Part shown: positions 21,040 through 40,825 of the stretch, in pieces
Numbering within the stretch: position 1 is the first letter of the stretch
How the letters are laid out: each line of letters begins with the position of its first letter
Virus record (IMG/VR): IMGVR_UViG_3300020201_000002
Location: 1-46,553 of that record
Strand: one strand, 5' to 3'
Length of the DNA stretch: 46,553 nucleotides
Origin: a virus
Notes under the pieces: generated by a model
Told to the model about the DNA's origin: nothing
Database searches by the model: none
The model's input: only the letters and a program-made list of their open reading frames with translations
Position numbers and translations under genes: made by a program

Positions 21040-21456
21040 ATGCCAATAAGCATAATCTTGGCGGTAGCGTCGGTATTTATCGCCACAACAGCATTACCAA
21101 TAACAATTAAAAAACCACCCGAACCTGTACCGATACCGCCACCAATAGTAGTGGTAGAAGTTAAGCCAGACTACTCTAGGGAAGCACTCAAAAAGTTTGC
21201 TACCCAAGAAGCTAAGAAGGCAGGTATGAGTGAACAAACTATTAAAGACCTATTCAGAACAATCAATTGTGAGAGTGGTTGGCAACACAATGTATATGGT
21301 GATGGCGGTAGAGCTTACTCAGTCAGCCAGTTCCACAGAGCTACGTTTAACGAAAACAGTCTAGGGGGGGAAGTGTATGAGAACCCACACGACCAGATAC
21401 GTGTAATGATAAGGATGTGGAATAATGATATGCACTCTCGTTGGACATGCTATTAG
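21040..21456 (+). CDS. Signal-anchored lytic-transglycosylase-like protein
   Basis: 138 residues. The N-terminal hydrophobic segment ISIILAVASVFIATTALPI is a signal peptide or signal anchor. A proline-rich linker (KKPPEPVPIPPP) follows, and then a lysozyme-like domain: INCESGW with candidate catalytic Glu78, YGDGGRAYSVSQFHRATF as the second conserved block, and a final RWTCY. Cys77 and Cys137 could form a disulfide, fitting an extracytoplasmic location. It may be a second, exported murein hydrolase of the lysis cassette, activated like signal-arrest-release endolysins. Spacing from the GH19 endolysin is 46 bases. It ends directly before a bidirectional terminator. Confidence 0.6.
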   Translation: MPISIILAVASVFIATTALPITIKKPPEPVPIPPPIVVVEVKPDYSREALKKFATQEAKKAGMSEQTIKDLFRTINCESGWQHNVYGDGGRAYSVSQFHRATFNENSLGGEVYENPHDQIRVMIRMWNNDMHSRWTCY

Positions 21457-21460
21457 CTGC

Positions 21461-21488
21461 AAAAAAGACCCCCTAGAGGGTCTTTTTT
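21461..21488. terminator. Bidirectional intrinsic terminator between converging operons
   Basis: Perfect 11-bp inverted repeat AAAAAAGACCC (21461-21471) and GGGTCTTTTTT (21478-21488) with a 6-base loop. There is an A-run on one side and a T-run on the other, so it works for both strands. It lies 4 bases after the lysis gene stop and overlaps the last codons and the TAG stop of the opposing gene (21473). Confidence 0.9.
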
Positions 21489-21973
21489 GTGCACTTAGGA
21501 CAGTTACATGAGAGAGACAGTACACATATTCCTTTCTTGTCTTTTCGTATTCCTGTGTCTCTACAAAGTAAACAGTTCTTATGCTTACAGAATGTTTCTG
21601 ACATTTTGATAGTCATTACTTCGTTTTCTTTTTCTGCCTTGTACAACGGGTCCGACTCTATCTTAGCCAACTCTTCCATCTCCTCAGGAGTAAACTTAGG
21701 ACCTGGCGGTGCAGGCTCTGGCTCAGGTGGTGCAGGTGGTGGCTCAGGTGGTGCAGGTGGTGGCTCAGGTGGTGCAGGTGGTGGTGCAGGTGGTGGCTCT
21801 GGTGGTGGCTCAGGTGGTGGCTCAGGTGGTGGTATCATTACCACCTGAAAGAAATTACCCATGTTGTCTATAAGCAGATTACCGACAAGAGATGCGTTTC
21901 TACCTTTCACTTCTTCATTAACCATTTGTTCCAGTGACACCCAGGATGCGGAGAAAAGTATTTTATATTCCAT
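21473..21973 (-). CDS. Proline-rich zinc-binding protein of the MoxR/VWA gene cluster
   Basis: 166 residues in three parts. Residues 1-45 form a globular N-terminus (SWVSLEQMVNEEVKGRNASL). Residues 48-91 are a nearly pure Pro/Glu/Ala tract made of PPPEPPPAPP-type repeats. The C-terminus has the cysteine cluster CKHKNCLLCRDTG ... CVLSLSCNCPKC, which could hold one or two zinc ions. It is the last gene of the leftward operon; its ATG is one base from the stop of the VWA gene. The proline tract looks like a rigid spacer between two binding domains. The function is unknown; physical partnership with the VWA protein is suggested only by gene order. I did not recognise the family. Confidence 0.75.
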   Translation of the reverse strand: MEYKILFSASWVSLEQMVNEEVKGRNASLVGNLLIDNMGNFFQVVMIPPPEPPPEPPPEPPPAPPPAPPEPPPAPPEPPPAPPEPEPAPPGPKFTPEEMEELAKIESDPLYKAEKENEVMTIKMSETFCKHKNCLLCRDTGIRKDKKGICVLSLSCNCPKCTKKTL

Positions 21974-21974
21974 A

Positions 21975-22829
21975 CTATTTTCTGTGAATATTACGCTTGA
22001 TAAGCTTTACGACTTTTGAAAATATCTCCGTAGGGTTCTGTATTACTTCCGTGTTTTTGCGTGGGTAGTAATCGTAGACATCTTCGGTCAAGATACCTAT
22101 TGCGTACACTTCTATACCTGACTTCATAGCGAGTGCTACTTCATGCTTCAAATCAAACGAGTCAATTGTTCTGTCAGGAAAGTGGTGTGTCCTCCACCAG
22201 TTAGTTGTAGGCCGTCCGTCACTCAGTACGATTATAATATTGTTACCGACTTTATTTTCCAGTATACGTTTATGACATAGTTTAATAGCTATAGGGTCGT
22301 AGTTATCTCCATGTAGAGTTCTTTGAGCTTGCTCGTAACCTTCTGCCTTAAATTGGCTATAAGAGTGTACACTACTGTTGAATATTCTGTTGACATCATC
22401 ACAGTTCCTCCACTCTTCCATACCCATACGAGAATGATGCCATACGGCTTCTAGGACAGTCCTTAGAGACTCTGGTGTAAAGCTTCTATCAGTGAATGCT
22501 TTTACAAGTAGGTCGCAAGCGATGTTATATCCACATATTTCTAGGTTTATAAACTCCTCTTTCTGGAGTGCACCATACACCTCTACTAGAGCATTTATAG
22601 CACACTTTATTTTATCCCCGTTCATAGAGCCAGACATATCGAGCATAAGAGAGATGTTGTACACTTTACCTTTTCGTTCTTCTTTCTTTTTGAACACCTT
22701 TTGTGAGAAACCAGCTTTGTATAAGCTTTTGAAATGTAGTTTGCCAGATTTTTTGTTTTTAACTTCTCGGTCAAACTGGTTGTCTCTGAGTATAGAGCGT
22801 ATTCGTTCTCTGAACGTAAAGCTATTCAT
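21975..22829 (-). CDS. von Willebrand factor A domain protein (CobT-like partner of the ATPase)
   Basis: 284 residues. The VWA fold begins at residue 57 with YNISLMLDMSGSMNG, the DxSxS metal-ion-dependent adhesion site (Asp64, Ser66, Ser68). NNIIIVLSDGRPTTNW supplies the later conserved Asp204. A basic N-terminal 55 residues precede it (FRERIRSILRDNQFD, KKEERKGK). VWA proteins paired with MoxR/CobS-type ATPases act as substrate adaptors for remodelling of target proteins, for example in metal chelation. Here the ATPase gene lies directly upstream and overlaps by 8 bases (ATGAATAG), so equimolar, coupled expression is expected. Target unknown. Confidence 0.85.
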   Translation of the reverse strand: MNSFTFRERIRSILRDNQFDREVKNKKSGKLHFKSLYKAGFSQKVFKKKEERKGKVYNISLMLDMSGSMNGDKIKCAINALVEVYGALQKEEFINLEICGYNIACDLLVKAFTDRSFTPESLRTVLEAVWHHSRMGMEEWRNCDDVNRIFNSSVHSYSQFKAEGYEQAQRTLHGDNYDPIAIKLCHKRILENKVGNNIIIVLSDGRPTTNWWRTHHFPDRTIDSFDLKHEVALAMKSGIEVYAIGILTEDVYDYYPRKNTEVIQNPTEIFSKVVKLIKRNIHRK

Positions 22830-23751
22830 GTACGATACTCTGGCGAAGAGTCTCTACTATTTCCTTCAAGTTCTTATTCTCTAACTCTAGCTGTACAGCC
22901 TGAGCACACATAACACCGTTAGTCTCCAGGATTTCTGCTATAGTAGTGTACTTAGTATTTGCAACAAGTTTCTTCAAGTCGGGTACTAATTCTATTTCCT
23001 CCTTTGTCATTTTTCCACAAATAGAATACTTGATAGCTTGGTCTAGTGGGATGTGAGCAGCTAGGTTTCCTGCGTATATAAGGTCTCTTGTTGAACAAAA
23101 GTAAATTATCTTTTCGTCACTTTTGAGCTTTCTCAAGCTTTGTGCAAGTAGTATAAGTGTAACAGCGTGACTCTCCTGGACTCCGTGGAACTGGCAAAGT
23201 ATTTTATTCTCCATTTCTGTTGTAGGTGGGTCTATTTCAATCACACAAGCAAATCGTGAGAACAAGGCTTTGTTTAGGTCTTTAGTACCTGCGTAATCTT
23301 CCGTTGGGTTCATTGTAGCAAAGAAACGGAACTCGTCGTGAGCTAGTAGCACCTCTGAGTTTTTTTCAACTATAGTAAGTGCACGGGCATCGTCGAGAAC
23401 TGAGTGCAGACAGAAAAGTATTTCTGGGAGAGCAGCGTTAATCTCGTCAAAAACTATCCAGTCACCGTTACGCATAGCCTGAGAAAGAATACCGTCCTGC
23501 CAGTAAGTGGACCCGTCTTTGACGAGCCACTTACCAACGACCTCTTCTATTCCTGTTGTACCATTCAGTGATACACGGTGAACTGTTTTTCCTACTTCTT
23601 CTGCAATACCTTTGATAATAGTTGTCTTACCGCATCCAGTTTCGGATACGAGTAAGACAGGCTTTGCACAAAGGATACTGGCACGTAATGCTGCTTCGTG
23701 CTTTGAGTTGATTTCAAAATTGCGTGGCTTTAAGGTGGTCTTCGTAGCCAT
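22822..23751 (-). CDS. MoxR/CobS-like AAA+ ATPase
   Basis: 309 residues. Walker A is SETGCGKT (36-43). Walker B is WIVFDEINAA (98-107, Asp102/Glu103). Sensor 1 lies in FFATMNPTEDYAG (Asn148) and the arginine finger region in ALFSRFACVIEIDPP. The insert GTTGIEEVVGKWLVKDGSTY and the overall layout are those of the MoxR/CobS group. The AAA+ ring would use ATP to remodel a protein bound by the VWA partner. The start ATG is preceded by GTAATTGT and lies 4 bases after the stop of the upstream gene. No DNA-binding or helicase motif is present. Confidence 0.85.
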   Translation of the reverse strand: MATKTTLKPRNFEINSKHEAALRASILCAKPVLLVSETGCGKTTIIKGIAEEVGKTVHRVSLNGTTGIEEVVGKWLVKDGSTYWQDGILSQAMRNGDWIVFDEINAALPEILFCLHSVLDDARALTIVEKNSEVLLAHDEFRFFATMNPTEDYAGTKDLNKALFSRFACVIEIDPPTTEMENKILCQFHGVQESHAVTLILLAQSLRKLKSDEKIIYFCSTRDLIYAGNLAAHIPLDQAIKYSICGKMTKEEIELVPDLKKLVANTKYTTIAEILETNGVMCAQAVQLELENKNLKEIVETLRQSIVHE

Positions 23752-40420: not shown

Positions 40421-40825
40421 ATGGAAAAAATGCACAAGCACCACATGATACCGTTATCACTTGGTATTATGGGTATTGACTGTCCATGTAACCTCATATC
40501 ACTCACCGAAAAGCAACACTTGGAAGTACACAAAACCCTGAACTTTGGGTACTACCATATGCGACAACACTACAAGACTGTGAACGGCTCTCTGGATATA
40601 GCATTCATATTCAAAGAGCAAGAGAAGATGGTGCGTTTGTACTTCAAGCCATTTGAAAAGATGTCAGCCTTCTTGCGAAAGGCACACCTTGAGAAAATGC
40701 GTGAACAAGTCACTTACGTTACTGAGCAACACAAAGTGGTGTACGGTAATTACGACAAAAATGGTGACTTTCGTTACCAACTCGATGTACTTATATACAC
40801 CTACGCTAAACAAACTAAAGGGTAG
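40421..40825 (+). CDS. HNH endonuclease-like protein
   Basis: 134 residues. HKHHMIPLSLGIMGIDCPCN, then LISLTEKQHLEVHKTL, gives the His-His ... Asn ... His order of a compact HNH motif (HHxxPxxxGG-D-x-x-NLxxLxxxxHxxxH). The C-terminal 80 residues are helical and basic. It lies between large terminase and portal, where HNH nucleases that stimulate terminase cutting are commonly found; a homing endonuclease is the alternative. A terminator overlaps its end. Confidence 0.65.
   Translation: MEKMHKHHMIPLSLGIMGIDCPCNLISLTEKQHLEVHKTLNFGYYHMRQHYKTVNGSLDIAFIFKEQEKMVRLYFKPFEKMSAFLRKAHLEKMREQVTYVTEQHKVVYGNYDKNGDFRYQLDVLIYTYAKQTKG

Follow-up and report, generated by a model that had tools for sequence, protein, structure and literature searches.

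The window analyzed here is a 46,553-base IMG/VR virus record, from an uncultivated phage, that encodes a terminase, a portal, an endolysin and a primase. Within it lie three consecutive ORFs encoding a MoxR-type AAA+ ATPase, a von Willebrand factor A (VWA) protein, and a protein with a proline-rich spacer and a Cys/His domain (Table 1). A sequence-only reading of this DNA had described three leftward genes that overlap or nearly touch, and we find all three on the minus strand where it had placed them: the ATPase and VWA ORFs overlap by 8 nt (ATGAATAG), and a single nucleotide separates the VWA stop from the start of the third ORF. Other gaps within the same operon include 5, -26, 4, -4, -17 and 5 nt. 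The operon's usual packing is thus equally tight, and adjacency is uninformative about the third gene. A terminator-like stem closes the leftward operon, with the third ORF as its last gene; this stem is absent from the output of a consensus terminator scan. Beyond it, the convergent neighbor (window 21040-21456, plus strand) encodes an N-terminal hydrophobic segment and a PPEPVPIPPP spacer of its own, and its product is similar to a portion of a 239-aa protein from the viral contig L053 (33% over 67 aa). Another plus-strand ORF, at 40421-40825 between the terminase and portal genes, has a weak homing-endonuclease match (phrog_655, E 2e-4). We found no DNA-level relatives of the window among deposited phages, and its TerL and primase matches are too distant for any host to be named.

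Table 1. Features of the three-gene locus, in window coordinates.
Feature	Positions	Strand	Basis
MoxR/CbbQ-NorQ-type AAA+ ATPase, 309 aa	22822..23751	-	Pfam, PHROG and PDB matches
Walker A SETGCGKT (residues 36-43; Ser for first Gly)	23623..23646	-	ATPase alignment
Helix-2-insert (H2i) motif GKWLVKDGST (residues 73-82)	23506..23535	-	Alignment; near NorQ H2i motif
Walker B IVFDE (residues 99-103)	23443..23457	-	D102/E103 invariant in alignment
Sensor 1 ATMNP (residues 145-149)	23305..23319	-	Invariant or nearly invariant in alignment
Compact CobT_C-type VWA/MIDAS protein, 284 aa	21975..22829	-	CobT_C match, structure model
MIDAS motif DMSGS (residues 64-68)	22626..22640	-	D64, S66, G67 and S68 invariant in 16-sequence alignment
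Insertion between MIDAS strands (about residues 111-176), candidate NorD-like finger	22302..22499	-	Model partly low-confidence; role inferred
Third ORF, 166 aa: short N-terminal domain, Pro/Glu/Ala spacer, C-terminal Cys/His domain	21473..21973	-	ORF list, PHROG
PPPEPPP-type spacer (residues 48-92)	21698..21832	-	Encoded by a short tandem repeat
C-x-H-x2-C-x2-C ... C ... C-x-C-x2-C domain, phrog_17149 type (residues 129-161)	21491..21589	-	PHROG match
Bidirectional terminator-like AAAAAAGACCC-TCTAGG-GGGTCTTTTTT	21461..21488	.	Between convergent operons, overlaps third-ORF stop codon; read directly from sequence

The ATPase matches AAA_5 (2.1e-25) and CbbQ_C (1e-9) in Pfam, with AAA_3 also above cut-off, and phrog_249 (3.4e-45) among the PHROGs. 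As a single sequence searched against the PDB, it lies nearest to midasin, NorQ (3e-27) and CbbQ, with CobS (1e-14) behind; a PDB search with a profile of the compact ATPase clade described below scored NorQ and CobS alike. Its Walker B, sensor 1, Arg finger and sensor 2 are all intact, as expected of a MoxR/CbbQ-type AAA+ protein. The earlier identification as a MoxR ATPase therefore stands, while its claim of complete motifs fails at one residue: at the first Gly of the P-loop, nearly invariant among relatives, the window has Ser.

The VWA protein matches CobT_C (7.1e-10) and VWA (2e-6) in Pfam, both above cut-off, and phrog_1576 (5e-18). Alignment confirms the intact DxSxS site that had been noted in the letters, and the later SDG Asp is likewise intact; the window's ATPase thus adjoins a VWA protein with an intact MIDAS. 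The top structural match of our moderate-confidence model (pLDDT 71.5) is the NorD VWA bound to NorQ, and the midasin MIDAS is within the first ten. The MIDAS-to-SDG distance is 133-150 in the window and its relatives L049-L051, whereas many others have about 75-100, and the finger-like insertion is short or absent in L055 and L056, members of the same clade. We looked for an HExxH motif in the window VWA and found none.

To assess conservation, viral contigs were scanned with the ATPase alignment as query, relying on ATPase patterns only and not selecting for neighbors, which yielded 78 usable loci in addition to one, L007 (IMGVR_UViG_3300033420_000007), whose long ORFs are open only with TGA as an amino acid. 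In L007, reading TGA as Gly, as in code 25, restores the ATPase P-loop. A CobT-like VWA gene accompanies the ATPase on the same strand in 78/78 loci, usually a few bases away, although many of these loci are closely related to each other and do not amount to 78 independent cases. The ATPase comes first in 75 loci, mostly with 15 nt or less between the genes (3.4 kb in one locus), and the VWA gene precedes it in the other three. The window's ten nearest ATPase relatives are diverse, at 36-48% overall identity to it, and most cellular relatives also carry the pairing. Scanning viral contigs directly with a VWA pattern gave no matches. Genes upstream and downstream of the pair vary between relatives, and a conserved gene 5′ of the ATPase, considered as a missing third part, was rejected, being common to near-relative pairs only (L049/L051, L052/L053 and L061/L065). 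The close relatives L049 and L051 share this gene at 52% identity, and apparently also a low-complexity gene directly 3′ of the VWA gene (L049:6356-7009 and L051:9876-10463). The top row of the phage-collection ATPase matches, MT836279.1, was excluded as a phage relative; although labelled Bacteriophage sp., it resembles a bacterial chromosome fragment bearing its own MoxR-VWA pair, with efflux-pump-like and NAD synthetase-like ORFs. The ATPase and VWA genes are the only conserved unit at the locus. This bears out the MoxR-VWA identification made from the letters, along with the remark that such pairs occur in phages, which the literature also records: they have been reported as cobST in archaeal and bacterial viruses (PMC8651126), in jumbo phages (PMC7824862) and in haloviruses (PMC7911831), and the ATPase and VWA proteins of ATV are known from reviews to interact (PMC4124505). 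The window pair is a variant of these described pairs, and the label ‘undescribed’ has to be dropped.

In a 57-ATPase tree, the window ATPase groups with L049-L057 and L064 in one clade of eleven (SH-aLRT 93; the tree comes from a quick search, with long branches outside this compact clade). The VWA partners in the clade are 250-410 aa long, L052 being truncated by its contig end, and all eleven lack both the HExxH motif and the N-terminal half of other VWAs. They share a conserved C-terminal KR-type tail in alignment. Among the longer forms, HExxH is present in the N-terminal half at 67/68 viral loci and in 6/6 annotated phages examined, often followed by N-x-x-E-D-x-R-x-E, and its state switches twice on the ATPase tree. 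An N-terminal metallopeptidase-VWA fusion was already recorded in jumbo phages (PMC7824862), whose ATPase-VWA pair has the architecture of our long-form relatives; the window VWA differs from it in having no N-terminal HExxH domain. The compact form is thus a machine cut down to the ring and the VWA domain.

We consider it very probable that the products of the first two genes make up a MoxR AAA+/VWA remodeling machine of two components in this compact form, and the protein-remodeling role suggested by the sequence-only reading appears right. The best reading, by analogy, is a NorQD- or midasin-like device in which the MIDAS site of the VWA protein would hold the substrate. Homology to NorQD, CbbQO and midasin suggests a hexameric ATPase ring; the VWA protein would dock into it through a pore-inserted loop and a C-terminal tail, the MIDAS metal would bind an acidic residue of the substrate, and ATP hydrolysis would twist the VWA domain and place strain on the substrate. 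In NorQD, a finger of the VWA domain reaches into the pore of NorQ at the H2i motif, GRxL(L/I)xxxxT, and the last residues of NorD meet the NorQ post-sensor 1 loop (PMC13036017). The H2i sequence of the window and the compact KR-type tail agree with NorQD at the level of motifs, which falls short of proving the same mechanism. NorQ-NorD and CbbQ-CbbO share with the window the ATPase family, the H2i motif, a MIDAS-bearing VWA and a C-terminal VWA tail, but NorD has an N-terminal domain and a linker that provide a second leverage point (PMC13036017), and the compact phage VWA has neither. Because the compact clade lacks an N-terminal arm or peptidase-like domain, substrate recognition would have to come from the VWA domain itself.

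Neighboring genes offer a hint as to what this compact machine might act upon. Ahead of the window pair, on its strand, lie genes for a helicase, a Gp157/Gam-like protein and a phrog_862 member, and a primase gene is close by; the neighbors in the four compact relatives tested (L051, L053, L055 and L057) include an exonuclease, a DnaB-like helicase, a primase and a helicase. L052 and L056 lie near terminase genes, so the link to replication is not uniform. Going by these neighbors, our tentative first choice of substrate would be a protein complex, from phage or host, that belongs to the replication/recombination stage. It is possible, if doubtful, that the compact clade forms a lineage of its own among phage MoxR-VWA machines, one that gave up the peptidase-like arm and was turned to remodeling such a complex.

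A role as a virion-assembly chaperone, as put forward for the MoxR-VWA pairs of jumbo phages (PMC7824862) and for p618/p892 of the virus ATV, strikes us as rather unlikely here. In ATV, the VWA protein p892 is bound by p618, a component of the virion, and raises p618 ATPase activity (PMC4124505), and, according to the literature only, this virus-encoded pair is peptidase-less like the window's (PMC7824862, PMC4124505). ATV differs in being an archaeal two-tailed virus with p618 as a virion component. Some relatives of the window pair also lie near terminase. The window pair itself sits in a leftward replication block apart from the structural genes. Because replication/recombination genes neighbor the pair both in the window and in the four compact relatives, we favor, with modest confidence, an early DNA-stage role over virion assembly.

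The proposal that the locus remodels a host defense complex, as an anti-defense or host-takeover device, is improbable. It would suit an accessory position, and bacterial conflict systems do include MoxR-vWA pairs (PMC7159879). Against this, PADLOC returned nothing beyond weak P-loop similarity, no anti-defense neighbors were recognized, and our literature search found no link, so the anti-defense reading of the earlier note gains nothing from either source. As for the ternary VMAP/iSTAND conflict systems, we find no conserved third component here, and the sole convincing match of the third ORF is phrog_17149.

That third protein does have the N-terminal domain, PPPEPPP spacer and cysteine cluster attributed to it from the letters. 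It matches phrog_17149 over residues 127-163 (4e-10, and 6.7e-11 in a further PHROG search) and nothing above cut-off in Pfam, and its seven Cys and one His, all eight candidate zinc ligands, align across the window and 16 viral relatives (17 sequences). The N-terminal domain, suspected by eye to be DUF1737, received no support from the HMM and is modeled with low confidence. Proteins of the phrog_17149 type are mostly short and come from Vequintavirinae, Sugarlandvirus and uncultivated viruses; the third ORF shares the C-terminal Cys/His domain with small single-domain members such as Seunavirus PVPSE1 gp169, and differs from them in its extra N-terminal domain and proline spacer. The domain itself (CLHDxCPxCxGTG...CxHxISCPCPKC) is a small viral one, found at the extreme end of short proteins in many unrelated phages (L018-L048), and a search of 200 genomes from one bacterial phylum found none.

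Could this protein be the targeting subunit of a three-component machine, as the sequence-only reading proposed? It shares the operon at 1-nt spacing, which is the operon's norm, and a proline linker could connect a docking domain with the zinc domain. Yet the zinc domain occurs elsewhere without the pair: no MoxR or VWA gene lies within 6 kb of it in any of 31 other viral contigs, and a related ATPase is found anywhere in only one of 21 whole zinc-domain records, about 15 kb off. Conversely, no relative of the pair keeps the zinc protein, which appears in 0/13 records with a related ATPase (ten of the compact clade plus L007, L058 and L060), in a search that lacked a positive control. The zinc protein was not found beside MoxR-VWA pairs in these other viruses, so that the third subunit lacks the conserved neighborhood whose absence the sequence-only reading had listed among its grounds for refutation; as downstream genes also vary, we reject the third gene as a conserved partner and hold the three-part module to be quite improbable. 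The third ORF is most reasonably regarded as an independent viral protein of zinc type, a passenger sharing the operon, though it may be a partner peculiar to the lineage of the window. In proposing three parts, the sequence-only reading was misled by operon adjacency; only the first two genes form an evolutionary unit.

We find it scarcely credible that the two are auxiliary metabolic genes for a viral CobS-CobT making cobalamin together with host CobN, as proposed for archaeal and bacterial viruses (PMC8651126) and as suggested by family annotations naming relatives CobS/CobT or porphyrin biosynthesis: judged by sequence, the pair is not a cobaltochelatase, because both proteins fall far below the equivalog cut-offs (58.9 against 558.6 for CobS; 23.3 against 759 for CobT) and CobT's N-terminal domain is absent in its entirety, the 284-aa protein matching only the C-terminal VWA part. 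With the reported cobST the window shares a phrog_249-family ATPase and an adjoining CobT_C-like VWA, and differs in just these respects; its ATPase is also nearer to NorQ/CbbQ than to CobS by single-sequence search, and no cobalamin or ribonucleotide reductase genes were recognized among the searched window proteins, a subset of its genes. A related point concerns the long phage forms (L058, L060-L063, L065-L126 and the annotated phages L004, L005, L006, L009, L010 and L011). In eight genuine proteobacterial CobT proteins (L200-L207), the N-terminal domain aligns with these forms and the motif is degraded (ACHD...H), so that intact HExxH is a property of the long phage ‘CobT’ and not of true CobT. 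Its presence in nearly all of them questions both the cobalamin reading of cobST and the claim that the peptidase annotation of phage CobT is mistaken (PMC8651126).

MoxR-VWA pairs abound in phages and frequently carry the labels CobS/CobT or porphyrin biosynthesis, and this naming feeds claims about vitamin B12 metabolism in phages. The compact pair is a small set of components suited to the in vitro study of substrate choice in MIDAS-driven remodeling. If the compact clade has indeed been redeployed to replication or recombination, this would be a use of MoxR-VWA machines so far undemonstrated.
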